From: a virus
IMG/VR virus record: IMGVR_UViG_3300031857_001545
Location: 1 to 22,242 of that record
Reading direction: 5' to 3' (one strand)
DNA: 22,242 nt
The notes below the pieces were generated by a model. It saw only the letters and a list, made by a program, of their open reading frames with translations. It was not told where the DNA came from and did not search any database. The first letter of the stretch is position 1. Every line of letters begins with the position of its first letter. The position numbers and the translations under genes are program-made. Of this stretch, positions 2,042-20,824 are shown in pieces.

Positions 2042-2337
2042 AGGGGCCATTAATTTATTATGAAATTAAAGAAATGTATGGTAGTGATTTAAGTAGCACA
2101 AAATTGGCTTCTGAGTTGCGTAAATCTATACTTGATGAAATAGACCTTGGCTTTAATGTCGAGGTTGATTTTAAAGATGTTCGTTCATTGTCTAGTGGAT
2201 GGACAAGAAATGCATTTGGGGTTATTGTAAAAGAAAAAGGTGAAAAATTTTTCAAGAATCATATATTGCTCAGTAATATGAGTAAGGGTGTTAGAAAAAG
2301 CGTGTTAGAAGGAATAGGAGAAATATTAGAAGTATAA
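2038..2337 (+). CDS. STAS-like domain protein (DUF4325-like)
   Basis: A 99-residue single-domain protein. The pattern of a helix (TKLASELRKSILDEIDLG), a strand VEVDFKDVRSLSSGW, and a late segment ILLSNMSKGVRKSVLEGI matches the STAS-like DUF4325 family, small alpha/beta proteins thought to act as regulatory or protein-binding modules. Elsewhere the domain is found alone or near histidine-kinase-type ATPases. Here no ATPase is adjacent. Instead it is coupled to rtcB, whose ATG shares one base with its stop codon. A regulatory role toward RtcB is possible but is only inferred from the coupling. The family call rests on remembered sequence pattern. Confidence 0.65.
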   Translation: MKGPLIYYEIKEMYGSDLSSTKLASELRKSILDEIDLGFNVEVDFKDVRSLSSGWTRNAFGVIVKEKGEKFFKNHILLSNMSKGVRKSVLEGIGEILEV

Positions 2338-3704
2338 TGGTTACTGGCAAAACTCTTATAGACTTAGGATATAAACCCTCAAAGTGGTTTAAGAATGTTA
2401 TAGATTATGCCAATACTAATAATCTAGAAAGTGACGCTATACATAAATATATAGATTCTATTGTTCCCAAAACACTAGAACCTCATAGTCAACCAATATC
2501 TTTTCATAAGAATATAGTGGCAGATAATCAGCATGAACAATCTAATATAGATAGTGTTTGTGCTGCAATGAACAATATATTGACAATTCCTACTGTGGTC
2601 AATGCAGCCATTATGCCCGATGCTTGTCCTACGGGGCCGAATGATATTCCTGTTGGTGGAATTGTGGCTACAAAAAATGCTATTCATCCTAGTATGCACA
2701 GTGCGGATATTTGTTGCTCCATGATGGCTACTGATTTGGGTTTTACAACGCCTAGAATCGCTCTGGAGGCCGCTTTTAAAATTACGCACTTTGGAGTAGG
2801 TGGACGAATATCGAACCACAGATGGCTTCCTAGCGACCTCAAAGATAAAATAATCAGCAATTACTATTTGAGTAGTCCTAAAAGTATAAATTATGCTGAA
2901 TATCATCTTGGTACTCAAGGTGATGGTAATCATTTCCTGTTTATAGGAATAAGACAAAGTGACGGTCATACTATGATGGTAACTCATCATGGTAGTAGAG
3001 GTTTTGGTGCGAATCTATATAAAGAGGGTTTGCATAAAGCCGAACAATTTACACAAGAATTAAGTCCGAATAGTAATCCTAAGCATCCTTGGATTCCCTT
3101 TGATAGTAAAGAAGGTCAGGATTATTGGGAAGCCCTTCAAATAACAAGAGAATGGACAAAACTTAATCATGAAATAATTCATAGGCTAGTTAAACAAAAG
3201 GTATTTAGTTCAATTAATAATGAAACTTTTTGGAACGAGCATAATTTTGTCTTTAAGAAAGATGATATTTTTTATCACGCTAAAGGAGCGACCCCATTAG
3301 AAGATATTTTTGTACCAGATTCTACAAATGGTTTACGTTTGATACCCATGAATATGAAAGACGGTATTTTAATCGTTAAAGGTGAAACAACACCAACTAA
3401 TTTAGGGTTTGCCCCTCATGGTGCTGGGAGAAATCTTAGTAGATCAGAACACAGACGATTAAGATTAGGTATTACCGGCAAGACCAAAGAAGAAATCTTT
3501 AAAGATGAAACAGATGGTATTGATGTTAGATTTTTCTCTGGACAACCAGATATTACTGAGTTACCATCAGCATACAAAGATGCCAACAAAGTAAAAGAAC
3601 AAATAAAACAATTTAATCTCGGAACTATAGTAGACGAAATAGAACCCTATGGTTGTATTATGGCTGGAGAAATAGATAAGCCTTGGAGAAAAAAGAAATG
3701 CTAG
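2337..3704 (+). CDS. rtcB: RNA-splicing ligase RtcB
   Basis: A 455-residue RtcB-family ligase. RtcB joins RNA 3'-phosphate (or 2',3'-cyclic phosphate) ends to 5'-hydroxyl ends using GTP and Mn2+. The active-site elements are all present: MPD at residues 93-95, a metal-binding Cys in SADICC (Cys126/127), GDGNH (195-199), HHGSRGFG (217-224), HNF and HAKGAT (302-319), and the guanylylated His in APHGAGRNLSR (His361). The segment after MPD (ACPTGPNDIPVGG) differs from the usual HWGYGFPIGG, so it belongs to a divergent branch. Full length, not truncated. The ATG overlaps the upstream stop by one base, and the next gene starts inside its last codons. With the RNA ligase at 4677-5705 it suggests repair of cut host or phage tRNAs. 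Confidence 0.95.
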   Translation: MVTGKTLIDLGYKPSKWFKNVIDYANTNNLESDAIHKYIDSIVPKTLEPHSQPISFHKNIVADNQHEQSNIDSVCAAMNNILTIPTVVNAAIMPDACPTGPNDIPVGGIVATKNAIHPSMHSADICCSMMATDLGFTTPRIALEAAFKITHFGVGGRISNHRWLPSDLKDKIISNYYLSSPKSINYAEYHLGTQGDGNHFLFIGIRQSDGHTMMVTHHGSRGFGANLYKEGLHKAEQFTQELSPNSNPKHPWIPFDSKEGQDYWEALQITREWTKLNHEIIHRLVKQKVFSSINNETFWNEHNFVFKKDDIFYHAKGATPLEDIFVPDSTNGLRLIPMNMKDGILIVKGETTPTNLGFAPHGAGRNLSRSEHRRLRLGITGKTKEEIFKDETDGIDVRFFSGQPDITELPSAYKDANKVKEQIKQFNLGTIVDEIEPYGCIMAGEIDKPWRKKKC

Positions 3705-4676: not shown

Positions 4677-5705
4677 ATGAGAAAACTAGCAAGCATACAA
4701 ACTATCAAATATGTTAAGCCTATACTAGATGCCGACAGCATAGAAACTGTTGGTGTTTTAGGTTGGGAGGTTGTAAGTAAAAAGGGTGAATTTAAACCCG
4801 GTGATACTTGCGTATTCTTTGAGATTGATAGTTTACTGCCAGATATTCCACAGTTTGAATTTCTACGCAAGGGTTGTTGGAACGACAAACTACAAAAATA
4901 CAGACTAAAAACAGTAAAACTTAGAAAACAACTTAGTCAAGGATTAGCACTACCAACAAGTGTCTTTCCTATACTAGCAGGATTGACTGCTGGGGCTGAT
5001 GTTACTGAGTTATTAAACATAGAAAAATACGAGCCGCCAATTCCAGCACAAATAGTAGGAGACGCACGATCTTTTAGTTGGCCCATAAGTAAAACAGATG
5101 AAACCAGAGTTCAATTAGATGACGAATACGGTTTCATTGAACAACTAACTGGTAATCCATATTATATTACTCTAAAACTAGATGGAACTAGTAGCACATT
5201 TTTAATTGATCCCAAAGACGATACTTATCATGTTTGTGGACGTAATTATAGTTATAAAGAAAATGAATCTCATAATTTTTGGCATATTAGTAGACAATAT
5301 AATATTGAGCAAGGACTAAGAGATCTATGGAATAGTGGAAAGAAAATAGCGGTTCAAGGAGAGGTTGTTGGGCCGGGAATACAAAAGAATCCATTAGGAT
5401 TAGCGAATCATGATCTATATATTTTTAATGTAGTGGATATCATTACCAATTCTAAATTATGTCTAGACGAATCACTAGAAATAGTGAATAAATTAGGTTT
5501 GCGGTTTGTACCGATCATTGACAAAGGCTCAAGGTTCGACTATACTCAAGACGATCTATTAGACAAAGCCAGAGGCAAATACAAAGAACACTTTCCTTCT
5601 GCTAAAGATTCTCAAGATCGTGAGGGAATAGTAATTCGAAGTATATGCGGAAACATCAGTTTCAAGGCTATAAATAATGACTTTTTATTAAAGGAATCAG
5701 TATGA
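4677..5705 (+). CDS. RNA ligase, DraRnl/Rnl5-like
   Basis: A 342-residue ATP-dependent RNA ligase. Residues 1-55 (MRKLASIQTI, GWEVVSKKGEF, GDTCVFFEIDSLLP) match the OB-fold that precedes the catalytic domain in the Deinococcus DRB0094 (Rnl5) family. The nucleotidyltransferase domain follows: motif I KLDGT with Lys167, VQGEVVG (227-232), a DLYIFNVVDI strand (246-255), motif IV REGIVIR (315-321) and motif V SFKAIN with Lys330. All catalytic elements are intact. DraRnl-type enzymes seal nicks in RNA or RNA-DNA duplexes with a 3'-OH RNA end, a different chemistry from RtcB. It follows the HAD gene by one base and overlaps the next small gene. Confidence 0.92.
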   Translation: MRKLASIQTIKYVKPILDADSIETVGVLGWEVVSKKGEFKPGDTCVFFEIDSLLPDIPQFEFLRKGCWNDKLQKYRLKTVKLRKQLSQGLALPTSVFPILAGLTAGADVTELLNIEKYEPPIPAQIVGDARSFSWPISKTDETRVQLDDEYGFIEQLTGNPYYITLKLDGTSSTFLIDPKDDTYHVCGRNYSYKENESHNFWHISRQYNIEQGLRDLWNSGKKIAVQGEVVGPGIQKNPLGLANHDLYIFNVVDIITNSKLCLDESLEIVNKLGLRFVPIIDKGSRFDYTQDDLLDKARGKYKEHFPSAKDSQDREGIVIRSICGNISFKAINNDFLLKESV

Positions 5706-18650: not shown

Positions 18651-18857
18651 ATGTTTTCTAATACCCTAAATAAAATTTTATGCAATAGGTTGTGGCGTCT
18701 TTGTTTTTCGTTTAAACAACGCAGATGCTATATTAGTGGCGATTCTCTGTGGTGTTGTTTGGCCTATAAAGGGGTCAAGCCTAATACTAGTTATATAGAT
18801 GATATATGGCTATCGCAAAAAGAATATTTGCAAAACCTATCCTATAATAATATATGA
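18651..18857 (+). CDS. Small Cys/Trp-rich hypothetical protein
   Basis: A 68-residue protein beginning two bases after the previous stop. It is basic with five Cys and four Trp. The core RRCYISGDSLWCCLAYKGV followed by IDDIWLSQKEYL resembles small phage proteins in which a strand with SGD(S/K)LW leads to a helix with W.....Y. The function is unknown. It ends in an ATGA overlap. Confidence 0.6.
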   Translation: MFSNTLNKILCNRLWRLCFSFKQRRCYISGDSLWCCLAYKGVKPNTSYIDDIWLSQKEYLQNLSYNNI

Positions 18858-19066
18858 ACAGACCATTCATACTGGTGCTATCAGGTATATTATCAATATC
18901 TGTCGGTGTGAATATTCTTTGCTTAGGTCATATATCTCAACAGCAAAAAATAATGACAGAAATTAACGCGATTTTGATAGAAAAAAGGGAACAAAAACGC
19001 AAACAATATATGGACAAAATTATTGAACACATATTAGAATTCTATGATAGAAAGTGTATTATTTAA
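18854..19066 (+). CDS. Small membrane-anchored protein
   Basis: A 70-residue protein with one hydrophobic segment (residues 5-26, FILVLSGILSISVGVNILCL) and a long basic helix behind it (EINAILIEKREQKRKQYMDK). It may be a spanin-like or holin-associated small protein in general form, but there is no lipobox or other diagnostic feature, so I only call it a single-pass protein. The stop codon is three bases before the first base of the tmRNA. Confidence 0.6.
   Translation: MNRPFILVLSGILSISVGVNILCLGHISQQQKIMTEINAILIEKREQKRKQYMDKIIEHILEFYDRKCII
19034..19062 (+). promoter_or_regulatory. Possible weak promoter for the tmRNA
   Basis: TATTAT at 19057-19062 is eight bases ahead of the mature tmRNA 5' end (19070), a fitting distance for direct initiation. 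At 17 bases upstream only TTAGAA (19034-19039) is found, a poor -35. The element lies inside the coding end of the preceding gene. It may be real, or the tmRNA may be cut from a longer operon transcript. Confidence 0.25.
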
Positions 19067-19069
19067 TAC

Positions 19070-19423
19070 GGGGACGTAACGGTATCGATTGGATATGGAG
19101 AATTATATTAGCAAGTAGTGGTTGATCGACCGGCCACTTTAAAAGTCGATTAAATGCTTTAACTGGCACAAATCAGTTAGCCCTTGCTGCTTAATTAAAT
19201 AACAGCAACAATCTTAGAAAGCGATGAAGGTAGCGTTCAAAAGATTGTCGTAAAATCCTTCGGCCGCTAGAATAGCCAACGGGTTCTAGCCTGAGATTAG
19301 TTGGTACGGAAAGACGAATGTTGTTTGTTCTTTAGTCTTTCTTAAAACTTATGAACAAAATAAACTTGTAGAATATGTAATTAGAAGTATCGCAAGACAT
19401 GGGTTCGACTCCCATCGTCTCCA
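19070..19423 (+). ncRNA. ssrA: Transfer-messenger RNA (tmRNA)
   Basis: A complete 354-base one-piece tmRNA gene. The ends pair as an alanine-type acceptor stem: GGGGACG (19070-19076) with CGTCTCC (19416-19422), then the discriminator A; CCA is not encoded. A T-arm (ATGGG, TTCGACT loop, CCCAT; 19399-19415) precedes the 3' end. Strands at about 19101-19115 and 19365-19382 pair as the long P2 helix. Hairpins at 19266-19290 (GCTAGAA/TTCTAGC) and 19309-19341 (GAAAGAC/GTCTTTC) fit the downstream pseudoknot region. The tag frame ends at 19194. tmRNA with SmpB frees ribosomes stalled on broken messages and marks the products for proteolysis. Phage-type genes on both sides show that it belongs to the phage genome. 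Confidence 0.95.
19156..19194 (+). other. tmRNA proteolysis-tag reading frame
   Basis: In-frame codons from GCT at 19156 to TAA at 19192 give ALTGTNQLALAA, with a second TAA four bases on. The LALAA ending matches the degradation signal read by ClpXP-type proteases in most bacteria. The resume codon is not certain: GCT at 19156 is the most usual choice (Ala), but the frame is open further upstream to AGT CGA TTA AAT, so a few residues more are possible. Confidence 0.85.
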
Positions 19424-19457
19424 TTTCAAATATACTGACTAAGATAAGGAATAATAA

Positions 19458-19580
19458 ATGAGTTTTTGGAAAAAGATGTATAAAAAATTAACCAAAAAGG
19501 AAAATAAAGACCCAAAAGAATTAGCAGAAGATAAGTATCTAAAAAAACTTAAGAAAAAATTAAAGAAACATTCATCATGA
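19458..19580 (+). CDS. Tiny lysine-rich protein
   Basis: A 40-residue, highly basic protein with about 17 Lys (MSFWKKMYKKLTKKENKDPK at the start). It has a ribosome binding site AAGGA (19446-19450) eight bases upstream, is the first gene after the tmRNA and is coupled by ATGA to the DUF1501 gene. It may be unstructured or bind nucleic acid; nothing further can be said. Confidence 0.6.
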   Translation: MSFWKKMYKKLTKKENKDPKELAEDKYLKKLKKKLKKHSS

Positions 19581-20824
19581 TTAATCGTAGACATTTTTTA
19601 TCTCACCTATCTGGATTATCTTCTGCTGCGTATTCTGCTCTTTATTTGAGAAATAGTATAGCGGCTAATGCTCCAGAATTACGCAAACAAAATAAAAGCA
19701 CTATACTCATTTGGTTGGGCGGTGGTGCTAGTAGTATTGATATGTGGGATTTAAAACCGGGATCAGCAACAGGAGGCCCATTTAAGCCAATCAATACTAA
19801 TGTAGACGGTATTCAAATCTGTGAACATCTACCCCTGCTCTCTAAAAATATGGATAAGTTAAGTATTATCCGTAATATGAGTACTAGAGAAGCAGATCAT
19901 ACCAGAGGTAGATATTATATGCATACAGGATATGTTCCTAATCCTAATATAGACTATCCTAGTTATGGTAGTGTAATATCCCATGAATTAGAACATCTTT
20001 GTAAAGATATAGAAATTCCATTGTTTGTAAGTATTGGTGGTACTAGCACAGGCCCAGGTTTTCTTGGCATGAGTTATGCTCCATTTATTGTTAATACCAA
20101 TGGAACGGTTCGTGATTTAGATATGGGACTAGATGAGACTAGAGTTAAACAACGCATGGAAATGCTGGCAACGATTGAAAATAGATTTATAAAAGAGAAT
20201 CGCGGAGGGTTTGCCCTAGATCATGCCAAAGTATTGAACAAGACTTGGAAAATCATGAATAGTGATCAAATGTATGCGTTTAAAACTACATCTGAATCTT
20301 CACAAACTAAAGATAGATATGGCAATTCTGCTTTTGGTAGAAGTTGTTTAATGGCAAGAAGATTGGTTGAGGCTGGCATACCCTTTATTGAAGTAGATTT
20401 TGGTGGATGGGATAATCATACTGATATTTTTAATACGCTAGAAAATCAAAAACTACCAGACCTAGACAAAGGTTTGAGTGCCTTAATCGAAGACCTTCAA
20501 GATAGGGGCTTGCTAGAAAATACAACCATAATATGTATGGGAGAATTTGGTCGAACACCAAACATTAATGGTAATGGGGGTAGAGATCATTGGGCAAGAA
20601 GTTGGAGTGTTGTAGTTGGTGGAGGTTCTTTTAAGAATGGAAGAGTTGTTGGCGAAACAAATGAAAATGGCAAAGAGATTGTGGGTAATGCATATACTTC
20701 TCAAGACTTAATGGCTAGCGTATTAAGAAGTTTGGGTATCTCACTAGAGACTACATTTACTGCTAAGAATGGCAGACCAATGAAAATTGCTAATTCTGGT
20801 AAAGTTATTACAGAATTATTTTAA
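19577..20824 (+). CDS. DUF1501 protein with twin-arginine leader
   Basis: A 415-residue DUF1501 protein, a branch of the sulfatase/alkaline phosphatase fold. It opens NRRHFLSHLSG, a Tat-type signal (Arg4-Arg5), with likely cleavage near AANA at residue 32. Family segments follow in order: IWLGGGASSIDMWDLKPGS (45-63), GGPFKPI (66-72), ICEHLPLL (81-88), DHTRGRYYMHTGYVPNP (107-123), GPGFLGMSYAPF, VDFGGWDNH and GEFGRTPNINGNGGRDHWAR, ending RPMKIANSGKVITELF. It appears full length, with the conserved Asp, His and Trp kept. The family is typical of planctomycete genomes, where the function is largely unknown; phage ownership is unusual. It is ATGA-coupled to the upstream small gene and two bases from endonuclease VII. 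Export by the host Tat system is inferred. Confidence 0.93.
   Translation: MINRRHFLSHLSGLSSAAYSALYLRNSIAANAPELRKQNKSTILIWLGGGASSIDMWDLKPGSATGGPFKPINTNVDGIQICEHLPLLSKNMDKLSIIRNMSTREADHTRGRYYMHTGYVPNPNIDYPSYGSVISHELEHLCKDIEIPLFVSIGGTSTGPGFLGMSYAPFIVNTNGTVRDLDMGLDETRVKQRMEMLATIENRFIKENRGGFALDHAKVLNKTWKIMNSDQMYAFKTTSESSQTKDRYGNSAFGRSCLMARRLVEAGIPFIEVDFGGWDNHTDIFNTLENQKLPDLDKGLSALIEDLQDRGLLENTTIICMGEFGRTPNINGNGGRDHWARSWSVVVGGGSFKNGRVVGETNENGKEIVGNAYTSQDLMASVLRSLGISLETTFTAKNGRPMKIANSGKVITELF

Follow-up and report, generated by a model that had tools for sequence, protein, structure and literature searches.

A complete tmRNA gene of the one-piece, ssrA-like type lies at 19070-19423 of the window, which is the entire IMG/VR record of 22,242 bases. 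Judged from its sequence and those of its relatives, it is very probably a functional phage tmRNA, an ancient acquisition, most likely from a planctomycete host, that a lineage of large phages has retained. Phage tmRNAs as such are already known, and the parts worth following are the lineage-wide retention, the replacement of Ala by Gly or Val at the resume codon, and the substitution of permuted for one-piece forms. The gene comprises the following elements.

19070-19423, forward strand: one-piece tmRNA gene (ssrA-like), followed by UUU, CCA tail not encoded (ARAGORN; Rfam RF00023, 119.2 bits)
19070-19076, forward strand: 5' strand of the acceptor stem, GGGGACG (RF00023 alignment; comparison of 50 phage tmRNAs)
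19159-19180, forward strand: predicted 8-bp hairpin, UUAACUGG-CACAAA-UCAGUUAG, pairing part of the resume codon (stem test and fold; kept in the window's phage clade)
19165-19167, forward strand: resume codon GGC
19165-19194, forward strand: tag frame GGC ACA AAT CAG TTA GCC CTT GCT GCT TAA, encoding GTNQLALAA and a stop (ARAGORN; codon-level conservation in relatives)
19184-19208, forward strand: helix 5 (UUGCUG/CAGCAA) around the tag stop codon (RF00023; fold)
19399-19415, forward strand: T-arm with a 5-bp stem and the 7-base loop TTCGACT (RF00023; alignment of relatives)
19416-19422, forward strand: 3' strand of the acceptor stem, CGTCTCC (RF00023 alignment; comparison of 50 phage tmRNAs)
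19423, forward strand: discriminator A

A sequence-only reading had proposed a complete tmRNA with an acceptor stem, a T-arm, a P2 helix and a tag ending in LALAA, and had recommended a covariance-model search as a check. Run on the window, ARAGORN reports a single tmRNA at exactly 19070-19423 on the forward strand, with the tag GTNQLALAA and the coding part at 96-125. The RF00023 search matches 19070-19426 over the full model (1-374) with 119.2 bits (E=2e-46) against a gathering score of 47 bits, which places the gene in the family by its whole-model score and disposes of the doubt that a low score would have raised. The proposed elements are each present by RF00023 or fold: the T-arm, P2, the tag frame and helix 5 (H5) are found together, and the acceptor stem GGGGACG/CGUCUCC, with its discriminator A, carries the Ala identity pair G3-U70, which together with the T-arm marks the tRNA-like domain. 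The tag frame lies between PK1 and H5, closes with an in-frame UAA and has a hydrophobic end finishing in Ala-Ala. The order of the parts is that of a one-piece gene, not that of the permuted form (RF04321). The fold energy of the single sequence is weak (z = -1.96, folding without pseudoknots), and the case for a tmRNA is therefore built on the covariance score and on comparative covariation, which also rule out a chance RNA-like fold.

The covariation was assessed on phage copies that are full-length and include an acceptor stem; 76 such copies were reduced to 50 by a 95% identity filter. In a structure derived from this same alignment of related sequences, standard pairs occupy 93% of the predicted pair cells, and 57 of the 86 predicted pairs, likewise taken from that alignment, vary on both sides. 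In the acceptor stem pairs 4-7 covary, with 5' strands reading GGGGGCG, GGGCTAG, GGGTGCG, GGGCCGG, GGGCGAG and others, each with a matching 3' strand, and pair 3 is G-U (G3-U70) in 50/50. Across 35 distinct tag DNAs the tag always ends in Ala-Ala with Leu or Met as the third-last residue, copies differ by third-base changes in the tag end, and variation in the LALAA end is mostly synonymous. Covarying acceptor pairs, an invariant G3-U70 and a synonymously varying tag end form the pattern expected of a tmRNA that is charged and translated. This bears on the proposal that the RNA does not support rescue and is instead a decoy or competitor, titrating host SmpB or altering the tagged pool, as proposed for the RNA of phage DS6A, which consists only of a tRNA-like domain and inhibits tmRNA (PMC4131195). 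Such a role would agree with the failure to find SmpB in phage records and with a resume codon and tag altered relative to hosts, but a decoy needs no intact frame with a conserved Ala-Ala end and synonymous variation, and we consider it quite unlikely. One phage copy (L032, 7627-7980) has the T-loop UGCAAAU where UUCRANU is usual, with its stems and tag frame intact.

A tmRNA is retained in most of the lineage. Relatives were sampled as 35 IMG/VR records carrying DUF1501, which are contigs of unproven completeness. A one-piece tmRNA above the RF00023 cut-off occurs in 26 of them and a permuted tmRNA in three more (G028, G031 and G033, at 82-97 bits), none of the 35 has both forms over the cut-off, and six are without a tmRNA (four of 78-122 kb and two of about 21 kb). 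ARAGORN missed several of the one-piece genes that RF00023 detected in these records. A tmRNA-specific motif scan of IMG/VR returned at least 119 stretches. The earlier description of full tmRNA genes as uncommon in phages holds in general, a survey of 18,146 genomes having reported tmRNAs in 402 phages (2.3%) and 133 unique structures among them (PMC9004378), but it does not apply here, as the majority of this lineage's records carry one. That nearly all related viruses checked have a tmRNA suggests that they need one. BLASTN of the tmRNA with its flanks against 50,697 phage records gave no match. Two further contigs carry tmRNAs: a compact gene of about 264 nt with the apparent tag AKTFAQAA (RF00023, 71.5 bits) lies at 3310-3573 on the reverse strand of an 81-kb contig (L283), and one with the tag VEAPLQMAA at 400-754 on the reverse strand of a 527-kb IMG/VR contig that is either a huge phage or a host contig (L266).

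Among the relatives, contigs of 187-238 kb encode a terminase of about 680 aa in addition to a tmRNA. A phrog_2 terminase match was obtained in 17 of 18 large relatives and is strong in 11, whose terminases are mutually 51-83% identical, and the tyrosine integrase profile PF00589 found nothing in 19 records of the lineage. The relatives are therefore read as large, apparently non-integrating phages, and the window as a viral genome on the strength of its IMG/VR record, the terminase of its relatives and the lack of a detected integrase. Kinship of the DUF1501 protein and of the tmRNA indicates that the hosts are probably planctomycetes.

Permuted (two-piece type) tmRNA genes, at 82-100 bits with RF04321, were located in L068 (4491-4687, forward), L076 (3350-3561, forward), L190 (1366-1562, reverse) and L192 (1368-1562, reverse), all four carriers belonging to the same DUF1501/terminase lineage. 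The terminase tree groups the permuted carrier G031 in a single clade with G029 and G030, which have the one-piece form. None of 149 planctomycete genomes contains a permuted tmRNA.

In the window the tmRNA stands in a run of genes on the same strand, of which its neighbours are the following.

18854-19066, forward strand: 70-aa frame with a hydrophobic N-terminal stretch, ending 3 bases 5' of the tmRNA (sequence)
19458-19580, forward strand: 40-aa lysine-rich frame between the tmRNA and DUF1501, overlapping the DUF1501 start (sequence)
19577-20824, forward strand: DUF1501 protein of planctomycete type (Pfam PF07394, 332 bits; tmRNA linkage in relatives)

The close packing among coding genes, with three bases between the upstream stop and the tmRNA, is thus as first described. 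A scan for sigma-70 promoters and terminators around the tmRNA found no more than in shuffled sequences, so no such signals can be claimed as its own. The arrangement recurs in relatives: in 33/33 loci the tmRNA profile hit and DUF1501 share a strand, in 30 they are no more than 3 kb apart, and the hit often lies 14-20 bases upstream of DUF1501, the permuted gene of L068 being among these loci. So tight a linkage in most relatives could be taken to mean that the tmRNA is a neutral hitch-hiker kept through DUF1501. However, substitutions across divergent copies preserve pairs, the frame is conserved, and the permuted tmRNA takes the place of the one-piece gene in sister phages; covariation largely contradicts neutrality, and this reading is very improbable. 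The closest cellular relatives of the window's DUF1501 protein are in planctomycete MAGs, many of them freshwater, at 60-69% identity, and its viral relatives are closer than the cellular ones (80 kept). The protein has a twin-arginine-like start (RRHFL), DUF1501 is common in large phages (138 confirmed IMG/VR stretches), and a FastTree tree shows only 3 label changes between viral and cellular copies. Against phage isolates only one weak match was found, covering 28%, and the literature search returned no paper joining planctomycete, phage and DUF1501.

A midpoint-rooted tree confined to tmRNAs of phages (50) and planctomycetes (55) unites the phage copies in one clade (support 99/95) adjoining host groups with AE-type tags; of the non-phage copies sampled, planctomycete ssrA genes are nearest. 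Like bacterial one-piece tmRNAs of RF00023 and planctomycete ssrA, the window gene matches the model over its full length, has G3-U70, encloses its stop codon in H5 and encodes an LAA-type tag. Unlike planctomycete ssrA it is AT-rich (39% G+C, against 59% in host tmRNAs and 32-34% in its own flanks), has GGC in place of a GCN resume codon and a predicted hairpin at that codon, and its identity to the nearest sampled host copy is only about 54%. These comparisons are best explained by a single ancient acquisition, after which the gene stayed in phages for a long time. A host ssrA beside an integration site had been named at the outset as the rival to a phage gene; in the form considered here, the gene would be a host ssrA or a fragment of host DNA caught at an attachment site by imprecise excision or as an att core. 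Integration at ssrA is common and prophages are known to contain fragments of host ssrA (PMC9004378), tmRNA is where Cluster K mycobacteriophages integrate (PMC3203893), and the adjoining DUF1501 gene is of planctomycete type. However, the window tmRNA is complete, sits in a phage-only clade at a distance from sampled hosts and is shifted towards phage composition, no second partial copy occurs in the window, the lineage records yielded no PF00589 integrase, and the terminase-bearing relatives of 187-238 kb hold the gene too. On these grounds an origin at an integration site was rejected as very improbable.

The suggestion that a phage tmRNA might change the tag agrees with the comparison of tags. 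Host-family tags read AEAQFSLAA, AEARFSLAA and AEAQFALAA, whereas the window's phage clade has GTNQLALAA, GETQLALAA, GVTQLALAA and similar, and a second phage clade GEVTLALAA, GEVSTLALAA and GETRFALAA. Among the 50 phage copies 46 tags begin with Gly, 3 with Val and 1 with Ala, whereas the planctomycete tags begin with Ala in 53/55 and with Gly in 2/55; over all rows the tree requires six changes at this position. Two planctomycete tmRNAs (L256 and L259) were given odd tags by ARAGORN (beginning GRAYQSVAKSDS), probably through a misplaced frame. A first residue of Gly or Val in 49/50 phage copies could mean that a working tmRNA is selected mainly to recode the tag, for another protease or adaptor or for selective degradation of host proteins that recycles amino acids, the latter having been proposed for phage Melnitz (PMC9004378). 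But the C-terminal degron (Leu or Met, then Ala-Ala) is kept and tag positions 2-4 vary within the phage clade, and recoding as the main benefit is unlikely.

An Ala (GCN) resume codon is usual in tmRNA, though not universal. In the window both ARAGORN and the alignment give GGC as the resume codon. The window's clade also has an in-frame GCU three codons upstream, preceded by similar bases (U-5 A-4), and the window tmRNA may from there encode a longer, Ala-first tag, ALTGTNQLALAA. GGC is favoured because UUG or AUG stands at the position of this GCU in the second phage clade. A scripted placement that put 11 resume codons at the upstream in-frame GCU was rejected, the alignment with other clades giving GGC as the homologous codon. 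The bases before it (UUUAACU, then GGC; U-5 A-4 A-3) partially match the preferred AUAG/AUAA-like tetramer named for the 5' side of tmRNA resume codons (PMC4236655).

In most of the window's clade, pairing is possible between positions -6 to +2 at the resume codon and tag positions +9 to +16 (UUAACUGG/UCAGUUAG, with two G-U pairs). Such stems comprise 6.4 pairs in phages against 4.2 with synonymously shuffled tags, and 4.4 against 4.4 in hosts. Within the clade the codons CAG UUA (Gln-Leu) vary only in L301, which has A-U in place of a C-G pair and His in place of Gln; this single compensatory change is suggestive support for the predicted hairpin. Local folding gives a pairing probability for the resume codon of 0.57 in the window's clade, 0.90 in other phages and 0.45 in hosts, which does not set the clade apart, so the hairpin rests on the stem test and the change in L301.

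The SmpB profile (PF01668) detected its positive controls and found nothing in the 35 phage records, again contigs of unproven completeness, and SmpB is present in 37 of 40 host-family genomes. The failure to see smpB in the window, noted first, is repeated in the records of its relatives, and the phage tmRNA would most likely use host SmpB, as had been presumed. The gene, its fold, charging determinant, frame, conservation and linkage, and the lack of a phage SmpB in the records searched are established; expression, charging, tagging and benefit are what we infer, along the following lines. The tmRNA would be transcribed as part of a same-strand phage operon, its ends made and its CCA added by host enzymes, and G3-U70 would direct charging by host alanyl-tRNA synthetase. 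Where ribosomes had stalled on broken messages, of the phage or of the host, it would be delivered by host SmpB and EF-Tu; translation would start again at GGC and append (A)GTNQLALAA, and the LAA end would direct the fragment to ClpP-type proteolysis by the host. The phage would gain a supply of free ribosomes late in infection, a stage of message cleavage and possibly of declining host ssrA expression.

Other genes of phage type in the window encode RtcB, an RNA ligase, ThyX, a UvdE-like endonuclease, endonuclease VII and a DNA ligase; no structural gene was identified in its 22,242 bases. RtcB (2337-3704) and the RNA ligase (phrog_968, 4677-5705) share the 22-kb stretch with the tmRNA, and the nearest isolate RtcB proteins, of Tenacibaculum phages PTm1 and PTm5, are 59% identical. 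These RNA repair enzymes make a setting of RNA cleavage during infection plausible, and we infer that they may be functionally tied to the tmRNA.

Eight mycobacteriophages and Bacillus phage G are on record as carrying tmRNAs (PMC4131195); those of the Bxz1-like mycobacteriophages and of phage G are, like the window gene, complete tmRNAs of large phages, which have other hosts and belong to other phage lineages. Methylophage Melnitz and pelagiphages have a two-piece tmRNA, likewise common to part of a phage group; that of Melnitz is permuted and linked to a glutamine riboswitch (PMC9004378), whereas the window gene is one-piece and it is the sister phages that have the permuted form (RF04321). 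Huge phages of over 200 kb similarly carry ribosome-rescue genes, with tmRNAs and also SmpB reported (PMC7162821), whereas no SmpB was found in the records of the present lineage. A further-reaching reading, possible but doubtful, is that these large planctomycete phages rely, as a whole lineage, on a rescue RNA of their own that has been retuned from that of the host, through a resume codon for Gly or Val instead of Ala, through a conserved hairpin in the window's clade that could control tagging, and through replacement of the gene in sister phages by a permuted form not found in the 149 planctomycete genomes.

The finding presents phage ribosome rescue as a lineage trait rather than an oddity, with dozens of natural variants, covarying stems and drifting tags in what are apparently planctomycete phages. 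What phages need from a tmRNA, whether ribosome release, tagging or resistance to host nucleases, can be tested directly through the altered resume codon and through the substitution of permuted for one-piece forms.
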